Assembly: GCA_902569115.1 (NCBI GenBank)
Contig: CACFTI010000001.1
Coordinates: 62,001-126,000, forward strand
DNA length: 64,000 nt
Direction of reading: 5' to 3'
Source of the DNA: an uncultured Verrucomicrobiota bacterium
GTDB taxonomy: Bacteria > Verrucomicrobiota > Verrucomicrobiia > Opitutales > Seribacteraceae
A program made the translations under genes and the position numbers. This document shows positions 42,460-53,327 of this stretch, piece after piece. The first letter of the stretch is position 1; every line of letters starts with the position of its first letter. A model generated the notes under the pieces. That model was not told where the DNA came from. It searched no databases and was given only the letters and a program-made list of their open reading frames with translations.

Positions 42460-45400
42460 ATGAATCCTAAATTAGATCCGATTATTACCCGCAAACTGAA
42501 TGATTTCAGATCACGCCGAAGAAATCTGATCCTCTTGCGTGGTCTTTGTTCGGGAACTCTTAGTTTTCTTGGCGTCTTTGTCTTGATCGCTCTTCTCGAC
42601 TACTTGACACAAGGAAGAATATCCGGGGATTTTAGGAGCGGGCTTTCCATTATTGGTTATTGCATCGTTTTGGTCACAGTTTGGAAAACCTGCATAAACT
42701 CACTCTTTCAACTTCCCAGTGCTCAAAAATTAGCCCGACTGCTTGAACAAGCATCGCCTGAACTAAAAGAGGATCTACTCTCCGCTGTTGAACTTGGGAT
42801 CTCAAGCCATGATTCTTCCGACTCGGATATTTTTAGAAATCTCGTTCAAAAGCAGGCATCCACCAAAGCAAGTAAGATCGATATTAAAAGTATTCTTCCT
42901 CTTGGAACTCTGAAGTATTGGTTACGCGGAACTGTTGCTCTCGTTGTTTGTACTCTTGCCCTCTTGCAAATCCCGGAATTTGGTAGCGACCTGAAGCTGC
43001 TTATGCAAAGAGCGATCCTGCCAGGTGCAAATCTACCACCAGTTACACTTTATGATGTGGTAATCCTGAGCCCTGATGAAAATGTTACTCATACACCAAG
43101 CAATGAACCGCTACGAGTTGTCGCCCGGATAACACCAAAAAGGGAAGGTATAACTTTCAAAAAAGTAAACCTGGAAACAAAGACAGCTCAAAAGATACGA
43201 AAGGTTGATCTATCTAAACGCAGCAATGAAAAGTATTTTGTTGATTACAATGTGGATGATCAAGCATTTGCATATCGAATCCTTGTGGATGATGCACCTC
43301 AGACTGAATGGAGAAACATGGGAGTAGCTGCCCGTCCTTTTATTGAAAGTTTTCAGAAGGACTTCATTTATCCGGACTACACTGAACTCAAACCCGTTAA
43401 GACAATCGAAAACCAAGGGGACCTGAAAGCATGGGAAGGTACAATTATCAATCTATCGCTTTCGGCAAACCAGCCGATTCGGTCCGGAAGAATTGAATTC
43501 AAGTGGTTGGAGAAAGCGGAAGAAGTGCGACAGATAAAGCCCGATAATGAGAATAATATCCTACGCACTTCAATTCGCATGACTCACCCCGGTACATATC
43601 GGATAAAAAATCTGATTGGAAACCAATTGGGCTGGGAGGGTCGTCCCTCCTCTATTTTTGAAATTACTGTCATACCGGACCTAGCCCCATCTGTAAAATG
43701 GATCGAGCCCCAAGAACGGAAGCTATTGGTAGCTCCAAATGATCTCCTCAGTTTCTCGGCCCTTGCAGAGGACGATCTGGGCCTTGCCCGTGTCGAATAC
43801 CTTATCAAGAAAAACCAAGGCAAATGGGAAGTGTTCCCCATCCCTGAACTCCTTGACCCGAGGGGGCACAAGAAGGCAGTACTTTCATTCAATCTTGATC
43901 TTTTGAAACATAAACTAAAACCCGGCACCCTCGCTCAGATAAAACTACGGGCACAGGATCTAAAAGGATCAAGAACTGAAACGGAAGCCATTGAGCTTTC
44001 CGTTATTTCCAGGGACTTCGATTTAAGCCAGCTACACCTTTTGGAAAAAAAATCCATGGTCCTCGAAAACCTTGAAATGATTAGAACTCAAACCATGCTG
44101 ATGCAGAAGAATTTTCAACCTTCACTCAAGGATTTTCAGCAAAACAAGCTTGATAGAAGTCTTTTTCTGGAAAAATCAAATCAGTTGGAAAATGAATTTC
44201 TACTCACGGCAGAGGAAGCTTATCAGGATAACCTCCGGGCATTAATTTCAATGCCCAGGGGAGCTGATTCATTTCAATTATCAATGCTTGCCCAAGCCCA
44301 TGGACAAATTTTTCATACCTTTGGCACGACCTGGGAGAAAATATGTTCACATGCCAAGAACAGTACTGAAGCGAATCAAGTTCGAGCAAAAGCTAATGAG
44401 CTTTCCCGGGAGGTTATTAATCGACGGATGTCAATATCCGGAAATTTTCGAAATGTAGCTCAGGATTTACTGAATCAGCATGCAGAAACGATTGCGGTCG
44501 CCTACCTAAGGTCTCTTCACAAAAGACAAAATGAATTACTAGACCATTCCGAGCAGGGAAAGACCCTTCCCTTTCTGATTCGAAGGCAAGAAGTGGCACT
44601 AAGCCAATGGAACCCGATTGCCAAAACAATGAGCTACTCCCGTGATTGGCAAAGATCATCAACTCTGAAAAGAATTCAATCGGAACAATTAAAATTGTTA
44701 CAATCAATTGATGAATTAGGAGACGACAGAAAAAAACTCCAAATTCAGATAACTAAGTGGGGTCAAACGATTCAAAATATTCTTCGGGAGACACAACAAA
44801 AACTTGCCTCAAAGTCCCGCGAGTCCTTCCGCCAAAAACCAGAGGAGCTTTACTGGAATCTTCACCGTAATCACTTGCTCTGGCAAAAACTCGATGAAAA
44901 GTGGAAAAAAGCTGTGCAGGCTCAGAAGAAACCAGAAGCTTTAAGTCATGCAGTAATAATTGCATTGTCGCAGTCGGATATTGTTATTTCAGAGACAATG
45001 ATGCTCTCGGAAGTTGAACAATCCAGAAAGGATCAAAACGCAATATTTGTTAAAGATGCAGGACAAACAGGAAGAGCTTTGATCAAAATTCAACAGGAAT
45101 CCCGTGAGACTGACGATTATGCTGAACTTTCTGAAAAATCTTCAAAAATTGCCAGCTCCTTTGACCTATTGCTCTTACAACACCATCTGATTGGGTCAGC
45201 CAATCAAACGCTTTATTTTATAAGGAAAGAGAGTTCCACCTCTTCATCCTGGCAGGGGGCAGAGTGTGCAAGACAATGGGGTCGTGTGGAGTCCGTTTGG
45301 AAACCAATTCTAGATAGCATGTCACGGATGCGCTTACCCAATGAAGTGATTGAAATTATGAAAAAACTTCCTAATCAGAATTACAGAAAAAATATTATAC

Positions 45401-48400
45401 GGGAAATGCAAAACCGTCTGAAATTCGATCAGAAGGAGACTAAACTGATAGTCGAAGATGCTAATCTAGTTTTTCAGGATTTACAAAAGATTATCTCTTT
45501 ATTGAAGGATGAAGTCCGAGAAGCTCGTTCATTTATCAATGAAAATGCCCCGTCCATTGCTGAGTTGGCCAAAGAGCTTGCAGAGGAAACTAAGATCCAA
45601 AAGCAAAAAATTGAGGAAATCAGTGAGAATAATAATCAAGACCTTGTAGATAAGAAGGAGACACTAGATAATCTCAACCAGGAGCAGGAGGAAATCAGTG
45701 CTTCCGTTGAAAATTTTGCTCAGGCTCTCCGACAGGAAGCCAACATTCAAAATCTTTTGGACGAGTACGGCCGGGAAATAGCAAGAGACGCTGACGATGC
45801 GGCGGCCTTGGTGGAGGAGACGGAGTCCAAAATCGCAGAAAAACTAAACGAGGCAACGCAGGGTCAAAATTCAGAAGAAATCGAAAACTTCACAAAGCAA
45901 ACTGTTGAAAAGCAGGAAGAACTCATTGATCAATTAAACCTTATTGCCGAGCATTTTGAGAAACTCGATGAGCAAGAGTCGGTGGCTGCAACCAGAGTTG
46001 AACTTAGAGATTTAGGGGAAAACCTTGAAATCGCCGAACAGCTTGAAGAACAATACGCTCAGGCTGAAAGATTGGCCGATCTTGCCAAACTCGCTCCTGA
46101 AGACTTGCTCGAAGAACTGGAAGAAGAGTTGAAAAGCAATAAAGCGATGCAACAGGAATTATCCGACCTTGCACAGGACACCGTGGAAGATGCTAATGAT
46201 CAACTCGAAGACGCATTGACCAAAGAAGAAAACTTGATTGACGAGCTCGAAAAGGAGAACAAGGAATTACAAAAGCAAAAGCAGGAAATAGCTAAGCAAC
46301 TAAAAGATTTGGCGAAGGAAGCCCAAAAGCTAGCCGAGCAAAAAATTGAGTCCGTTGAGAAAGAAGCGGAAAAGGCACAAGCGGATACGTTGAGCAAAAA
46401 AGCCGAGGATCTCCAAGAAGCTCTGGCTGAAGAGGCTCAGCAAACCGAGGAGGTAATCCAAAGTAAGCCTGATACCCAAGAACTAAAGGATGCTGCATTA
46501 GCCCTTGCCGATGCTCTAGAGGAAACAAGCAACGATTTGCAGGAAATCGCCAACGATCTGAACGAGCAATCTGAACTTGATTCCGAAAGCGCGCTGAAAA
46601 AGGCAGAAGGTGCAGAAAAAATTGCCCAGGAGACCCAGGCAAAAGTCGATTCAATGGAAGAAAAGGCAAATCAACTTCAAAACAAAGCCCAGAAAGCCCA
46701 ACAAGACTCCCTTAAAAAACAAATCGAAGAGGAAAAGGCCAAAGAGGAAGTACTTGAGTCCGGGGATGCTCTCGAAGAAGCCCAGGAACTTGCTTCTCAA
46801 TCACGCAATGATCCGACTCTTCAGGAAAATCTCGAAGAAGCAAAGACTAAACTTGCCCAGAAAAAAGAGAATTTTCGACAGGCACAGGAAAGTGCCTCAT
46901 TGGCCAAAGAAAAAGCGAGCCAATTGACGGAAGAAGCAAACCTTGCCCAAGCGGAAGCCGAAGATGCCAAGCAAAATGCAGAGAATGCAAAACAAGAAGC
47001 GGAAGAGGCAAATGCATTAGCAGAAGCCCTGACTAATCCAAATCTTCAGGACTCCGTCAATGAAGCCAGTAAAAAAGGAAACGAACTCGCCCAGGAAGCA
47101 GCGGAGGAAGCTAATGACCTTAAGCAACTAGCAGAAGAACTTGCTGAAGCCCTCGATCAACTCACGGAGGAAGCGGAAGGAAATGCTGAACTTCTTGCAG
47201 AAGCGGAACAAACTCAGCAAGAACTAGCTGAAGATTTATTCGAAACCTCTCAAGAATTAGCCCGAGCAGCCAGACATGAAGAAAGGCTCGACAATCCATC
47301 CGCTGGTGAAGCTTTGGAGAAGATAGCCGAATCAATCGAAGACACTGCTCTTAATGATCTCCCTGAAACTGCTCAAGCACTGGAAAATCAAGCATTGGCC
47401 AACGAGCTTGAAGACCTTGCGGAAAGCGCAGAGGAATTGGCCGAAGATCTGGCTTCTAATCAACCACACGGGGATGAAGAGATTGCCGGAGAACTAAATG
47501 CTCTAGCCGAAGAAACCACAGACTTGATTGAAGAAAATCCATCTTTCGCGGAGCTTCAAGATCAAGCCGAGGAATTTAGTACGCAAGCGAATCAAACGGA
47601 GGAGAGCCTTTCGCAACTTGCCGAAGATTTGGCTGGCGATGCCCAAGCGGCTCAGGAAGTGGCAGAATCTTCCGGCGAAGCTGCAGAACAGGCGAAAGCC
47701 GATATGCAAGCTGCCCAATCAGAGGCAAATGAAGCAGCCCGTGAGGCTGAAAACCTTGCACAAGCCTCCGAAGAAGCAGCACAAGCCCTGGAAAATGGAA
47801 CAGGCACTCAGAATCAAGCCATTGCCGCTGCTGATAATGCAGCACAACTTGCCGCAGTTGCAGAAAGTGCCGAAGAGGCTTTTGAAAAAGCCCAAGAACA
47901 AGCACAAACGGATTCCAATCTTGCCAATGAATCTATTGCCGAGGCAGAACAAGCGGCAAAACAAGCGGAAGAAGCGGCTGATTTAGCAGCGGCAGCAAAT
48001 GAATTATTGGACCAATTTTCCGAAACTCCACCATCCAATGAATTGGCTAATACTGATCTCCCTAGTGCGGGAATGGCTTTAAATGAAGTCGCAAATGCTC
48101 TCGAAAATCAGTTGGAAGCCCTCGAAAATCTGCAATCAGGAGAAAACATCAACTCATATCCTGACACCACTGAAAGCAAACGGGAAGAATTCCAAGCAGG
48201 ACAAAGTTCAGCAGAATCACCCGAAAATTTTGCTTCCGCCGAAGATGCATTCGATAGCATTACTCCATTCTCGGACCCTGAAGTCAGCGAAGTTTTGGCA
48301 CAAACTCTTGATACACTCGACCAAGCTGTATTCTCCACGGAAAATCCTTTCAACGAACCCGCAAATTCCTTACCCAGTGAATCACCACCTAGTGGCGAAC

Positions 48401-48879
48401 CACTCCAATCCGCTTCTATGGAACCGACCACTCTCGGGGAACACCAAAGTTCTGAGACTTTCCTAAGTGAGCCTGGGGAACACATACCAGGAAATGGACC
48501 CGGATCCGGTGCAGGTTCAATGGCATCAACCCCTTCCGCAAACCAAGCAATCGCTCAAGCACTTCAATCTTTGCAATTGGCCTCGGAAGCTCACGCACAA
48601 CGCATGTCACAACAACGTACTCAATTTATGATGGCTGATGCCCAGGGTAACCAAATAAATTCTTCTGATGGTGAATATCAAGTAAGCCCGGTAGCTGAAG
48701 TTGGTGACTTACCAAAATTTGAACAAGTTATGAATGAAGATGAATGGGGTAAATTACCAGCCAAACTCGCGAAAGATCTAATGGAGGCAGAAAGGGAAAA
48801 AGTTTCTGAAAATTACCGCAATCAAGTTCAAGCATATTTTCAGGCAATGTCGGACAAAGCGAGGACTACCAAAAAATGA
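42460..48879 (+). CDS. Giant DUF4175-like membrane protein with a long acidic coiled coil
   Basis: 2139 residues. Residues 1-175 hold three hydrophobic helices (about 24-46, 60-78, 150-172) in the pattern of DUF4175-type proteins (RRRNLILLRGLCSG). About 180-500 is a beta-rich extracytoplasmic region with Ig-like segments (YPDYTELKPV, FSALAEDDLGLARVEYLIKK). From about 1000 to 1850 the sequence is almost wholly Glu, Ala, Gln, Leu, Asn and Lys in heptads (repeated LAEE, EEAN, AEEL), a predicted coiled coil up to 120 nm long. The C-terminus (about 1850-2139) is Pro/Ser/Gly-rich and ends in a basic helix. A start with GGAG upstream. Overlaps the next gene by ATGA. Role unknown; the MoxR operon suggests cell-envelope work. 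Confidence 0.85.
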   Translation: MNPKLDPIITRKLNDFRSRRRNLILLRGLCSGTLSFLGVFVLIALLDYLTQGRISGDFRSGLSIIGYCIVLVTVWKTCINSLFQLPSAQKLARLLEQASPELKEDLLSAVELGISSHDSSDSDIFRNLVQKQASTKASKIDIKSILPLGTLKYWLRGTVALVVCTLALLQIPEFGSDLKLLMQRAILPGANLPPVTLYDVVILSPDENVTHTPSNEPLRVVARITPKREGITFKKVNLETKTAQKIRKVDLSKRSNEKYFVDYNVDDQAFAYRILVDDAPQTEWRNMGVAARPFIESFQKDFIYPDYTELKPVKTIENQGDLKAWEGTIINLSLSANQPIRSGRIEFKWLEKAEEVRQIKPDNENNILRTSIRMTHPGTYRIKNLIGNQLGWEGRPSSIFEITVIPDLAPSVKWIEPQERKLLVAPNDLLSFSALAEDDLGLARVEYLIKKNQGKWEVFPIPELLDPRGHKKAVLSFNLDLLKHKLKPGTLAQIKLRAQDLKGSRTETEAIELSVISRDFDLSQLHLLEKKSMVLENLEMIRTQTMLMQKNFQPSLKDFQQNKLDRSLFLEKSNQLENEFLLTAEEAYQDNLRALISMPRGADSFQLSMLAQAHGQIFHTFGTTWEKICSHAKNSTEANQVRAKANELSREVINRRMSISGNFRNVAQDLLNQHAETIAVAYLRSLHKRQNELLDHSEQGKTLPFLIRRQEVALSQWNPIAKTMSYSRDWQRSSTLKRIQSEQLKLLQSIDELGDDRKKLQIQITKWGQTIQNILRETQQKLASKSRESFRQKPEELYWNLHRNHLLWQKLDEKWKKAVQAQKKPEALSHAVIIALSQSDIVISETMMLSEVEQSRKDQNAIFVKDAGQTGRALIKIQQESRETDDYAELSEKSSKIASSFDLLLLQHHLIGSANQTLYFIRKESSTSSSWQGAECARQWGRVESVWKPILDSMSRMRLPNEVIEIMKKLPNQNYRKNIIREMQNRLKFDQKETKLIVEDANLVFQDLQKIISLLKDEVREARSFINENAPSIAELAKELAEETKIQKQKIEEISENNNQDLVDKKETLDNLNQEQEEISASVENFAQALRQEANIQNLLDEYGREIARDADDAAALVEETESKIAEKLNEATQGQNSEEIENFTKQTVEKQEELIDQLNLIAEHFEKLDEQESVAATRVELRDLGENLEIAEQLEEQYAQAERLADLAKLAPEDLLEELEEELKSNKAMQQELSDLAQDTVEDANDQLEDALTKEENLIDELEKENKELQKQKQEIAKQLKDLAKEAQKLAEQKIESVEKEAEKAQADTLSKKAEDLQEALAEEAQQTEEVIQSKPDTQELKDAALALADALEETSNDLQEIANDLNEQSELDSESALKKAEGAEKIAQETQAKVDSMEEKANQLQNKAQKAQQDSLKKQIEEEKAKEEVLESGDALEEAQELASQSRNDPTLQENLEEAKTKLAQKKENFRQAQESASLAKEKASQLTEEANLAQAEAEDAKQNAENAKQEAEEANALAEALTNPNLQDSVNEASKKGNELAQEAAEEANDLKQLAEELAEALDQLTEEAEGNAELLAEAEQTQQELAEDLFETSQELARAARHEERLDNPSAGEALEKIAESIEDTALNDLPETAQALENQALANELEDLAESAEELAEDLASNQPHGDEEIAGELNALAEETTDLIEENPSFAELQDQAEEFSTQANQTEESLSQLAEDLAGDAQAAQEVAESSGEAAEQAKADMQAAQSEANEAAREAENLAQASEEAAQALENGTGTQNQAIAAADNAAQLAAVAESAEEAFEKAQEQAQTDSNLANESIAEAEQAAKQAEEAADLAAAANELLDQFSETPPSNELANTDLPSAGMALNEVANALENQLEALENLQSGENINSYPDTTESKREEFQAGQSSAESPENFASAEDAFDSITPFSDPEVSEVLAQTLDTLDQAVFSTENPFNEPANSLPSESPPSGEPLQSASMEPTTLGEHQSSETFLSEPGEHIPGNGPGSGAGSMASTPSANQAIAQALQSLQLASEAHAQRMSQQRTQFMMADAQGNQINSSDGEYQVSPVAEVGDLPKFEQVMNEDEWGKLPAKLAKDLMEAEREKVSENYRNQVQAYFQAMSDKARTTKK

Positions 48880-49994
48880 GGGGTGTGTTTAAATTCCATC
48901 TGAAAAGCAGAGCAAAGATCCTCACGATTCTTCTATTCAGCTTAACATTTCACACAGGCAAATCGCAACCTGTCGAACAGTTCGAATCAACTGAATGGAA
49001 GAATCCATTCAAACCGGATGAAGTGGATAAAGCCATTGAATCAGGTATCCAGTTTCTTTTGAGCAATCAAAAGAAAGATGGGGCGATCTATGATAGAGGG
49101 AACCCTACTGCAATCACAGCCTTATCAGTTATGTCGCTTGCAGCGGTTGGTCACCTACCGATTCATCCCAATGAAAATGGCAGAGCTATGGCCAAAGCAC
49201 TTGAATTTATACTTCTTGAAAAAAATCAAGATGAAGTTGGCTATTTTGGCAAACACGGAGGCCGTATGTATGGCCATGGTATTGTCACCCTAACCTTAGC
49301 TGAATTGTTGGGGATGGGAATGGACGAAAAGACTGATAGATCCATTCGGGAGAAATGCCAAAAAGCGATTGATATGATTCTCCGATCACAAAAAGTTCGT
49401 AAGAATCCGTCACAACAAGGAGGGTGGCGATATAGTCCCGATGCAAGAGATGCTGATTTGTCAGTGACTATTTGGCAATTAATGGCTTTGCGTTCAGCCA
49501 AAAACTCAGGCCTTGTCGTCCCTGGAGCAGCCATTACCGATGCGATCGAATACTTAAAACGATCTTACAAGTCGAAGCTCGATGAACAAGGTGCTCCCAT
49601 TGATAAAAAGTCAGGGTTTGCATACCAACCCGGGGGACACCCAGAATATACAACGACTGCAGCTGGCTTGCTGGCCATGCAAGTCTGTGGACAATACGAG
49701 TCACCTTTTGTTCTAGGGGCTGCTGATTGGCTTCTCGATAATGCTCCAAAGACCAATCGGAAGTTTTTCTTTTACGGTACTTATTACTATGCCCAAGCCA
49801 TGTATCAGCGTGGCGATGAACACGCGGAGAAAGCCCGCAAACTGGTGGAGGAAATTCTTCTTCCTATGCAAAAAGATAACGGAGCCTGGCAAGGAGGAGG
49901 CTCAGAATCAGGTACAGGGGAAGTATACTGCTCATCTATGGCCATGTTGGCTCTTGCCGTAAAATATCATTACCTGCCAATTTATCAGCGTTAG
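48876..49994 (+). CDS. Secreted prenyltransferase/squalene-oxidase repeat protein
   Basis: 372 residues with a signal peptide (about 10-30, ILTILLFSLTFHTGKS). The rest is an alpha-alpha toroid: repeats such as GIQFLLSNQKKDGAIYD, AITALSVMSLAAVGHLP, GGWRYSPDARDADLSVTIWQLMALRSAKN, EYTTTAAGLLAMQVCG and GAWQGGGSESGTGEVYCSSMAMLALA, typical of the prenyltransferase/squalene cyclase repeat group. The catalytic DxDD of cyclases is absent, so it is probably a binding or structural protein, as in other members of such operons. Last gene of the MoxR operon; overlaps the giant gene by ATGA and ends 4 bases before a convergent gene. Confidence 0.87.
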   Translation: MRGVFKFHLKSRAKILTILLFSLTFHTGKSQPVEQFESTEWKNPFKPDEVDKAIESGIQFLLSNQKKDGAIYDRGNPTAITALSVMSLAAVGHLPIHPNENGRAMAKALEFILLEKNQDEVGYFGKHGGRMYGHGIVTLTLAELLGMGMDEKTDRSIREKCQKAIDMILRSQKVRKNPSQQGGWRYSPDARDADLSVTIWQLMALRSAKNSGLVVPGAAITDAIEYLKRSYKSKLDEQGAPIDKKSGFAYQPGGHPEYTTTAAGLLAMQVCGQYESPFVLGAADWLLDNAPKTNRKFFFYGTYYYAQAMYQRGDEHAEKARKLVEEILLPMQKDNGAWQGGGSESGTGEVYCSSMAMLALAVKYHYLPIYQR

Positions 49995-49998
49995 TGAT

Positions 49999-50847
49999 CT
50001 ACAATCGTAAGGCTTTCTCGTTCAATCCGTAAACTTGAGTAGCCACCTCCCCTTCGATCAAGCTTTGTTCATTTTCACTAAGCTTGGAAATGAACTCACG
50101 ACAAATTTCAACCCATGGACCATATTCAATAGCCAATCTTGCAACCGGCCAATCCGAACCGAACATCATTCTTTGCGGACCAAAAGCGTCGAGAGTAATC
50201 TCCATGTAAGGAAATAAATCGTCCTTTTTCCAACTTCCCCAGTCTGCCTCTGTGGCAATTCCGGAAAGTTTACAGGAAACATTTTCTCGCTTGGCTAATT
50301 CATACATTTGCGATTTCCATGGCTCGATTAGGGAATCTCCAATCCTTGGTTTGGCGATATGATCCAATACGAATACTTGATTCGGATGCCGGTCAACAAA
50401 CTCAATAGATGGAGCGAGCTGTCTTTCATAAATTAAAATATCATACACCCAGCCATGCTCTTTGATCAAACTGACTCCCCGGTTAAAATGTTCTCCAAGA
50501 ATAAAATCATCATCTGGTTCATCCTGAACGACATGGCGAATCCCCTTAAGTAAATTATTGTCAGAGTATTTATCCATTAAATCTCCAACATTCGCATCTG
50601 CTAAAGGAAGCCACCCCACAACTCCCAAAATAAAATCATGCGCCTTAGCATGATCAAGCAAGTCATCTGTTTCGCGTAAAGATTGATCCGCCTGCACGGA
50701 GACAACACCATCAATCCCAACAGCAGAAATCTCACTCCTCAAATCTGGAGGCTGGTAATCAACCTTCAGAATATTCATTTCATCATTCATCCATGAATAG
50801 GTCTTGGGGTCATATTGCCAAAAGTGATGATGAGAATCTATTTTCAT
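49999..50847 (-). CDS. Amidohydrolase, L-fuconolactonase/rhamnonolactonase-like
   Basis: 282 residues of the amidohydrolase-2 family (COG3618 type). The start MKIDSHHHFWQYDPKTYSWMN with HxHFW, DGVVSVQADQSLRETDDLL, GIRHVVQDEPDDDF, FVLDHIAKP, NVSCKLSGI and MMFGSDWPVARL match sugar-lactone hydrolases such as fuconolactonase; the last Asp (GSDWP) is the catalytic one. It probably hydrolyses a sugar-acid lactone in the cytoplasm. It begins 2 bases after the stop of the LIM/DA1 peptidase gene. The fucU gene at 10.7 kb would suit fucose as its source, but the two are 39 kb apart. Confidence 0.83.
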   Translation of the reverse strand: MKIDSHHHFWQYDPKTYSWMNDEMNILKVDYQPPDLRSEISAVGIDGVVSVQADQSLRETDDLLDHAKAHDFILGVVGWLPLADANVGDLMDKYSDNNLLKGIRHVVQDEPDDDFILGEHFNRGVSLIKEHGWVYDILIYERQLAPSIEFVDRHPNQVFVLDHIAKPRIGDSLIEPWKSQMYELAKRENVSCKLSGIATEADWGSWKKDDLFPYMEITLDAFGPQRMMFGSDWPVARLAIEYGPWVEICREFISKLSENEQSLIEGEVATQVYGLNEKALRL

Positions 50848-50849
50848 AT

Positions 50850-51905
50850 TTATTGTAAGGTTGGAGGTTTTGACTTTCTTTTCATTTCGGCAAGCAGAGC
50901 TGGCCAGCCAAGAACTGAAAGGCGTTGTTTCATCCTCCGGTACCCTGCTCCATAAACAGGGTTGTCACTCTGCTTCATGTTTTCAAGAATAATTGAGGCA
51001 AGCTTCCCTTTCTCTTTGAAAAGAGTTGCTTCCGAAACAAGGTTGCAAAAGCCCTCAACCACCGCAGGGATATCCTCAATAAATCTCTCATTAAGCCATA
51101 TATGGGCATATTCGTGAGCCAATACAGATGAACATTCAATGTGAGGCATTCCATGAAGGATAAAAATATCGTGATCAAATGTTGTACGAGTAAATTTTCC
51201 ATCGCTAACAATTTTATAGCTTGTAAGGGTCAAGCCCCGAAGATTGCCACGAGCATTAATTTTTAGTGCCTGCTTATCAATAACCTGCTTTGCCACTACA
51301 CGAATATTCACATTCCCCTTAGGAAGAGAAATTCCTAATGAAGACAAAGTTGGCCACACTCGCCTTCTTACTTCCTCCATTCTTTTTACATCATATACGC
51401 CATCGGACGCACAGGATAAACAATTGATTCTTCCATCCTTTAAAATTTGTTTAGTCGAAAGCATTCGAGGTGAAATTATTTTTGAGCAAGAATCACATAC
51501 TTTTGCTTTATGAAAGTGGTTCGAATGAACTAATCCGCCCCATTCATCTCTCTTTAATTTTTCACCACCTTGAAATCCTTCATTGCAAACTAAGCATGTA
51601 AAACATTGCTCATGAAATTTATAAGGGCCAGCTTCTTTAATTGGAGAATTCCCAAGCCTTTCTGAACAACGGTGACATCTTAATATCCTTGACCAATCTC
51701 GTATAAATTGTCGATCAGATGGAATAAAGCGGTTGATCAAAAATCGATATTCCCGTTCCTCAATCCTAATGCCCACCTCATCACCTTCAACTTCAAAAAG
51801 TTCGCCTAATTGCGTTTTACCCTCAACCGTTGTCCACAACCTGTTCGCTGCAAATGGAGTAGAAAAAGTCAGAATTAAGCAGAGCAAATATGGTATTCGT
51901 CCCAC
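50850..51905 (-). CDS. Secreted LIM-domain, DA1-like zinc metallopeptidase
   Basis: 351 residues from a GTG start. Signal peptide 1-20 (LLCLILTFSTPFAA). Residues 22-71 form an SHD1-like small domain (LWTTVEGKTQLGELFEVEGD). A complete LIM zinc pattern follows: C77-x2-C80-x17-H98-x2-C101-x2-C104-x2-C107-x19-H127-x2-H130, then a second zinc pattern C137-x2-C140-x21-C162-x2-C165. The C-terminal DA1-like peptidase has H264-E-Y-A-H268 with E284 in VVEGF, the gluzincin set. Plant DA1 has LIM, LIM-like and peptidase parts in the same order but with ubiquitin-binding motifs in front and no signal. This is the same architecture, exported. It is 15 bases after argH; substrate unknown. Confidence 0.85.
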   Translation of the reverse strand: MGRIPYLLCLILTFSTPFAANRLWTTVEGKTQLGELFEVEGDEVGIRIEEREYRFLINRFIPSDRQFIRDWSRILRCHRCSERLGNSPIKEAGPYKFHEQCFTCLVCNEGFQGGEKLKRDEWGGLVHSNHFHKAKVCDSCSKIISPRMLSTKQILKDGRINCLSCASDGVYDVKRMEEVRRRVWPTLSSLGISLPKGNVNIRVVAKQVIDKQALKINARGNLRGLTLTSYKIVSDGKFTRTTFDHDIFILHGMPHIECSSVLAHEYAHIWLNERFIEDIPAVVEGFCNLVSEATLFKEKGKLASIILENMKQSDNPVYGAGYRRMKQRLSVLGWPALLAEMKRKSKPPTLQ

Positions 51906-51920
51906 GATTTCCGTTTTCAG

Positions 51921-53327
51921 TTAATCGGATAAAATAGAATTCCAATGGGCAATTCTTGAAGCTATCTGTTTCGGGCCGGGCATCCCGGGTTTTTCTCGCA
52001 TCGAGAATGCCCTCTTCAGATCGAAAACTTCCCGCCAATCATTTGTGAGAAATTCAGAAATTTGCTTTGCATCCTCATCGGGAATTTCACTTAAACGAAT
52101 ACCTTGAGACTCAGCAAGCCCCACTAGTTCTCCAACCACATGATGGGCCTGCCTGAAAGGAAGGCCTTTACTGACAAGAAAATCCGCTAAATCCGTCGCA
52201 AGAAGCAAGGGGTCTGACGCGGCCAGTTGACATTTTTTCTCGTTGAAAACAGTTTCTTCCATGCATCCTTTGACCACAGCCAGGCACAAAGACAACTGAT
52301 CATAGCTATCAAAAACAGGTGGCTTGTCTTCCTGTAGATCGCGATTGTAGGTCAAAGGAAGGCCTTTAACTAAGACCAGCAGGTTTGTAAGATTCCCGAC
52401 AATCCTGCCGGTTTTCCCCCGGATTAATTCATAACAATCAGGATTTTTTTTCTGAGGCATTAACGAGGAACCCGTGGTAAAAGAATCCGGCAGTGTGACA
52501 AACCCGAATTCCGATGAATTCCAAAGAATAAAGTCTTCCGCAAGCCTAGACAAATGAACAGCAGTCATGGAACAGGCACTTGCAAATTCCAAGAATAAAT
52601 CACGGTCTGCGACCGCATCCATGCCATTGGCAGTCAAGCAAGCATTTCCATCATCATCCACGAACCCTAGGATCTTAGCGGTATATTCGCGGTCCAAAGG
52701 AAGAGTGCTACCGGCAATTGCTCCAGATCCTAATGGGCAGGCATTCGCATGCTTAGCAACGACTGAAAACCTCTCATGATCTCGACCTAATGATTCGATA
52801 TGGGCAAGCATATGATGCCCGACCGTAACTGGTTGTGCCCTTTGCAAGTGAGTGTAACCTGGAATTGGAAGGGACGCGTATTTCTCAGCAATAAATAATA
52901 GCGCTTGCATTGCACCTTCAAGACTGACTTGCAAATTAGAACAAGCGTCCTTGAAAAAGAGTCGCATATCTGTTGCTACCTGGTCGTTTCGACTTCTCCC
53001 AGTATGCAGTTTGTCCGCTGCCTTAGTTTTTCCACGCAACGCCTGCTCTAAATTCATATGAACATCTTCCATCTCAAGTTTCCAAGGAAAATCATCCTTA
53101 AGAATCTCTTCCTGTAACTCTTGAATTCCAAGTTCAATCTCCTTTAACTCTTCTGCGGAGATAAGGCCTACATAAGCAAGCATAGCCGCATGCCCGAGAC
53201 TTCCCTTTAAATCATATGAAGCGAGTCTTTTATCAAATGATACGGATTCTCCGAATATTTGCATCAGGGCGTCTGGTCGGGATGAAAATCTCCCGCCCCA
53301 TGTGGCATGCTTTGTTTCGTTTGGCAT
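51921..53327 (-). CDS. argH: Argininosuccinate lyase
   Basis: 468 residues, normal length; splits argininosuccinate to arginine and fumarate, last step of arginine synthesis. The fumarase/aspartase superfamily signature GSSLMPQKKNPD, with the catalytic serine loop, lies at about residues 285-297; other landmarks are WGGRFSS at the N-terminus, EDVHMNLE, HTGRSRNDQVATD and the TGYTHLQ-equivalent PGYTHLQRAQPVT. Start ATG without ribosome-binding motif. The DA1-like gene follows 15 bases after the stop. Confidence 0.97.
   Translation of the reverse strand: MPNETKHATWGGRFSSRPDALMQIFGESVSFDKRLASYDLKGSLGHAAMLAYVGLISAEELKEIELGIQELQEEILKDDFPWKLEMEDVHMNLEQALRGKTKAADKLHTGRSRNDQVATDMRLFFKDACSNLQVSLEGAMQALLFIAEKYASLPIPGYTHLQRAQPVTVGHHMLAHIESLGRDHERFSVVAKHANACPLGSGAIAGSTLPLDREYTAKILGFVDDDGNACLTANGMDAVADRDLFLEFASACSMTAVHLSRLAEDFILWNSSEFGFVTLPDSFTTGSSLMPQKKNPDCYELIRGKTGRIVGNLTNLLVLVKGLPLTYNRDLQEDKPPVFDSYDQLSLCLAVVKGCMEETVFNEKKCQLAASDPLLLATDLADFLVSKGLPFRQAHHVVGELVGLAESQGIRLSEIPDEDAKQISEFLTNDWREVFDLKRAFSMREKPGMPGPKQIASRIAHWNSILSD

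Follow-up and report, generated by a model that had tools for sequence, protein, structure and literature searches.

A LIM-bearing DA1-like peptidase of Verrucomicrobiota with an SHD1-like domain and a predicted export signal

Introduction

What does a LIM domain do on a bacterial peptidase of the DA1 type, and in which compartment would such an enzyme act? The question is raised by a gene of the window, that is, the whole 64,000-nucleotide stretch of DNA from an uncultured Verrucomicrobiota bacterium that was analysed here. In plants, DA1 restricts the size of organs and seeds, and there is no agreed account of how the LIM-like region exerts its control over the protease. In the parts of Dong et al. 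(PMC5322733) used here, the LIM-like region of the DA1 family is described with four CxxC/H pairs and the active site of plant DA1 with the spacing HExxH-x15-E; the C274Y substitution, which lies in the third CxxC/H pair of the LIM-like domain, is described there as abolishing both ubiquitylation and peptidase activity.

Results

The gene (50850..51905), located like its domains and both flanking genes on the minus strand, encodes a protein of 351 residues with the layout SHD1-LIM-C4-DA1-like peptidase, and starts with a GTG that is the earliest start codon past the upstream in-frame stop. Pfam identifies its neighbours as argH (argininosuccinate lyase, 51921..53327), directly upstream with a gap of 15 bp, and an Amidohydro_2 gene (49999..50847), directly downstream with a gap of 2 bp. 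The order argH, DA1-like gene, amidohydrolase is retained in the family with short or overlapping gaps: argH is immediately upstream in all six family loci with enough flank, the window included, and Amidohydro_2 downstream in five of these six. Purifying selection on the gene is strong, dN/dS being about 0.08: four pairs gave ratios from 0.075 to 0.097, with the window pair near saturation at synonymous sites. Because these ratios are below 0.1 and the predicted fold is confident, the open reading frame is more than a product of chance; the gene is real and was correctly read from the sequence.

Examination of the protein with Pfam places it above the curated cut-offs of two families, with 40.1 bits against 25 for the DA1-like family (PF12315) and 29.3 bits against 22.9 for the LIM family (PF00412). 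The LIM domain (residues 77-130, 51516..51677) gives, as an isolated fragment, 33.5 bits with PF00412 (E 4.9e-8) over profile positions 1-55 of 58, and contains eight ligands at LIM spacing, C77 C80 H98 C101 and C104 C107 H127 H130, for two predicted zincs. It is followed by a putative C4 zinc site (C137, C140, C162 and C165; residues 137-165, 51411..51497) and by a DA1-like gluzincin peptidase domain (residues 170-344, 50874..51398), which carries the active-site motif H264-E265-Y-A-H268 (51102..51116), a predicted third zinc ligand, E284, at HExxH-x15-E spacing (51054..51056), and near the C-terminus a YGxGxR block (residues 318-323, 50937..50954) that corresponds to the last part of the DA1-like profile. 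Searched as a separate fragment, the C-terminal region aligns to positions 168-212 of this profile (E 0.0065), so the likeness to DA1 extends beyond HExxH. Furthermore, PF12315 is matched by all 42 aligned relatives in the phylum.

The sequence-only reading had reported a full LIM ligand set, a second four-Cys set and HEYAH...E284, in the order found in plant DA1. The eight LIM ligands are indeed all in place, the peptidase residues have exactly the numbering given, and the domain order is upheld by Pfam and by the structure matches described below. The second set stands in so far as its four cysteines are present, but it corresponds to no more than half of the LIM-like set in plants; because just two CxxC pairs come after the LIM domain, the total of predicted structural zinc sites is three. 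The protein thus resembles plant DA1/DAR, a ubiquitin-activated peptidase (PF12315), in having a LIM domain, then CxxC pairs, then an HExxH-x15-E peptidase, and the Pfam DA1-like model covers both its active-site and its C-terminal YGxGxR regions. It differs by having two CxxC pairs after the LIM domain, where the parts of PMC5322733 used here describe four CxxC/H pairs for the plant proteins, and by having a signal segment and an SHD1-like domain where plants have ubiquitin-interacting motifs; moreover, no ubiquitin system is expected. The claim that ubiquitin-binding motifs are replaced would presuppose a direction of evolution; as to their absence, it agrees with a Pfam search up to E 1, in which no UIM family matched, and residues 22-74 have instead a predicted SHD1-like fold. 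The protein belongs to the DA1-like family of Pfam but, having two pairs instead of four after the LIM domain and no detected ubiquitin-interacting motif, it is not plant DA1 proper.

An AlphaFold model of the full-length protein, built on 42 sequences, has a mean pLDDT of 94.1 and a pTM of 0.88. Two points, both named beforehand, on which the reading could fail were examined in the models. The first was whether the Cys/His set forms a LIM fold: in the predicted model it does, residues 73-144 matching LMO2 with Z 10.1 and an rmsd of 2.1 over 65 residues. The second was whether the HExxH lies within a gluzincin fold, and here too the models uphold the reading. The C-terminal part of the full-length model aligns to metallopeptidases, with the SHD1, LIM and peptidase matches in the expected chain order, and a peptidase-only model (pLDDT 95.4) retrieves zinc metallopeptidases, some of them receptor-bound, in nearly all of the 50 matches listed, together with two bacterial lipoproteins to which no function is assigned. 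These matches, which include IRAP (M1), ACE/ACE2 (M2), vibriolysin (M4), Grimontia collagenase and MATCAP, are mostly M1/M2/M4-type gluzincins or MATCAP and have modest scores (Z 7.8-9.4 over 136-163 residues). Foldseek returned no PDB match with E < 0.001 for either the full-length or the peptidase-only model; since Foldseek alone was not significant, the fold assignment is drawn from a second look with VIA-align together with Pfam. The window peptidase shares with M1 aminopeptidases, M2 ACE, M4 vibriolysin and MATCAP the catalytic fold and the HExxH with a downstream Glu, but its identity to them is low, about 8-14%. No M1, M2, M4 or MATCAP gluzincin is known to have an attached LIM or SHD1 domain. 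Sequence searches of the PDB gave no DA1 entry among the matches, which makes these small bacterial proteins candidates for the first DA1-type peptidase structure.

The N-terminal domain (residues 22-74, 51684..51842) had been called SHD1-like. In the predicted model, residues 20-74 match the SHD1 domain of yeast Sla1 (2hbp) with Z 8.8 and an rmsd of 1.7 over 55 of 66 residues, so that a common predicted fold covers the whole domain; however, the window domain has no direct above-threshold Pfam score with PF03983 (SHD1), and the binding of short NPFxD-type peptides is a function of the yeast SHD1. A profile of the family N-terminal domain (A3) finds proteins in 35 of 103 genomes of the order, one of which, L072 (E 2e-11), itself passes the PF03983 cut-off (E 9e-8). 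Given this indirect link and the structural match, the designation SHD1-like is well founded. As the domain occurs in every tested member of the window's family and in none of 47 other DA1-like proteins, it is a family-specific addition.

Conservation singles out the same residues. Among 18 orthologues, the LIM ligands, the C4 cysteines and H264, E265, H268 and E284 are all invariant with the exception of C107, which is replaced by Thr or Ser in two of them (L039 and L040), a change that may impair or abolish their second LIM zinc site. When 42 diverse sequences are compared, no variation is seen at C77, C80, C137, C140, C162, C165, H264, E265, H268, E284 and G285, or at Y318, G319, G321 and R323 of the C-terminal block. 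The C4 set is thus as strictly kept as the active site, whereas the remaining LIM ligands vary.

The predicted signal segment (residues 1-20, 51846..51905) is a hydrophobic stretch with a Kyte-Doolittle maximum of 2.35, is helical from residue 4 to 20 in the model and is followed by no further transmembrane segment; orthologues have an equivalent stretch ahead of a conserved R-x-[WF]. By a simple hydrophobicity measure, which is not a signal-peptide predictor, a strongly hydrophobic N-terminus is found in 41 of the 42 DA1-like proteins of the neighbourhood set, the figure for conserved genes next to them being 43 of 159; a later membrane-like segment occurs in only one of the 42. The single exception, L053, has a start codon apparently called too far upstream. 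These counts speak for export being a property of the DA1-like family in Verrucomicrobiota. As to the earlier claim of a signal peptide and a location outside the cytoplasm, the single N-terminal hydrophobic segment with none later is confirmed, while export itself is a prediction.

Cys-rich zinc fingers are unusual in an oxidising compartment, and this counts against an exported enzyme. The many Cys zinc ligands, together with the fact that the window protein has no clear-cut small-x-small cleavage site, would rather suit an N-terminus that is an uncleaved anchor or is not used at all, with the enzyme staying cytoplasmic or at the inner membrane, its cysteines reduced and loaded with zinc. 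We regard this alternative as rather unlikely in the face of two observations: 41 of 42 relatives keep the single N-terminal hydrophobic segment while the remaining N-terminal region diverges, and SHD1-like domains of the order are often preceded by similar hydrophobic N-termini.

Discussion

Taken as a whole, the protein is likely to be an exported DA1-like zinc metallopeptidase in which the C4 part belongs to the catalytic unit, the LIM and SHD1-like domains are non-catalytic and control is independent of ubiquitin. Its site of action is most likely the envelope or the extracellular space, where it would act as a putative zinc endopeptidase. The N-terminal signal segment would probably take the protein across the inner membrane. 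Judging from fold and conservation, H264, H268 and E284 of the gluzincin domain would coordinate a single catalytic zinc and E265 would serve as general base; as far as can be told, catalysis would be like that of the protease core of DA1. The C4 site beside the peptidase is placed in the catalytic unit because its phylum-wide invariance equals that of the active site and because the plant C274Y protein, in the parts of PMC5322733 used here, loses activity, C274 being equated with the C137/C140 pair by order only and not by alignment. The LIM and the family-specific SHD1-like domains may direct the enzyme to its partners or substrates, proteins that lie in the envelope or are extracellular. 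Since no ubiquitin-binding motif is in evidence, control would probably be exerted by location, zinc supply or substrate presentation and not by ubiquitin. A bacterial family that retains no more than the protease core and the C4 module, with a predicted site of action beyond the cytoplasm and apparently no role for ubiquitin, would reveal what catalysis as such requires.

The genomic neighbourhoods do not favour any particular substrate. A comparison of 48 loci revealed no partner gene travelling with the DA1-like genes across the phylum; the neighbours that do occur, among them argH, a transketolase-type gene and a MraY-type gene, are each specific to a lineage, and as none recurs phylum-wide, they give no hint of the substrate. 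In the distant lineage f23, a DA1-like gene (L118:7425-8423) also lies 27 bp downstream of an argH homologue. In another subgroup of the class, seen in five genomes (L134, L136, L137, L138 and L142), the DA1-like gene is flanked by a transketolase-type gene on one side and a conserved gene of about 200 codons on the other, and the encoded proteins have an extra conserved C-terminal region beyond the peptidase. NCBIfam, PHROGs and PADLOC returned nothing informative, and a phage or defence role therefore has no support.

In the sister lineage f93, genes for an ABC ATPase, an FtsX/MacB-type permease, a His-rich predicted lipoprotein and a DUF3299 protein precede a multi-LIM DA1-like gene (L052:801-6055 and L053:1434-5628). 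This upstream cluster resembles ZrgABCDE, a Zur-controlled zinc uptake operon, and is suggestive of a link between DA1-like genes and zinc, as seen in two genomes of one genus. It could be argued from the position of this multi-LIM homologue that the zinc-finger part is mainly zinc-responsive or zinc-holding, and that the enzyme takes part in envelope zinc homeostasis and is active only with sufficient zinc. We hold this to be improbable: the ZrgABCDE-like context was seen only in those two genomes of a single genus, the window's family has argH and amidohydrolase neighbours instead, a Zur-like palindrome is no commoner near the f93 operons than expected by chance, and the DUF3299 gene of the window genome sits on another contig. 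An exported peptidase with a catalytic C4 part and non-catalytic LIM and SHD1-like domains is the reading that we retain.

Of 388 Verrucomicrobiota genomes sampled, 37 contain DA1-like peptidases; the orthologue of the window protein is present in most of the genomes sampled from its family, and in every one sampled from its genus. The closest relative, from the uncultured Verrucomicrobia genome AG-891-C06, is the only one in the named genome collection. In a tree of the peptidase, the window's family forms one clade (98/90) whose sister is f93, where several LIM-type units stand ahead of the peptidase, and both together form a clade (100/98); such a tree fits long vertical inheritance. Searches of plasmid and viral sequences gave no relatives of the DA1-like protein. 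That the gene was recently captured from a plant or another eukaryote, or is a contaminant, as the rarity of LIM domains might suggest (PF00412 matches in 4 of 289 genomes of the phylum), is strongly disfavoured and highly improbable in view of orthologues in identical gene order in most sampled family genomes, of a tree that unites them in a single clade next to another family of the order, and of a closest match that is 75% identical and lies in a Verrucomicrobia genome with the same gene order. The phylum has few canonical LIM matches because the tandem CxxC...CxxC fingers of most relatives miss the threshold of the LIM model.

The opposite direction can be entertained as a tentative and somewhat doubtful proposal: the unit of zinc finger and DA1 peptidase may have arisen in bacteria, exported and free of ubiquitin, and may have passed later to plants, where it stayed cytoplasmic and came under the control of ubiquitin. 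If so, the C4/LIM-like module would ancestrally serve catalysis and not ubiquitin signalling. Bacterial relatives were already noted in 2017 by Dong et al. (PMC5322733, citing Burroughs et al. 2011), who mention Roseiflexus DA1-like proteins with LIM-type CxxC/H pairs. Compared by description only, these resemble the window protein in being bacterial, DA1-like and endowed with such pairs, and differ in that export and SHD1 are absent from their description in the parts of that paper used here. While bacterial LIM-type relatives of DA1 were therefore known, the secretion signal, the added SHD1-like domain and the extent to which a predicted secreted form occurs in the phylum are new: within the limited literature searched, we found no description of the exported SHD1-bearing form or of the spread of predicted secreted DA1-like peptidases in Verrucomicrobiota.

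Two further genes of the window deserve mention. An ORF of 2139 codons (42460-48879) has a marginal DUF4175 match (26.7 bits against a cut-off of 27.3) and a very long Ala/Glu/Gln-rich region that is probably coiled-coil, and is followed (48876-49994) by a gene for a predicted exported toroid protein resembling prenyltransferases and squalene cyclases.
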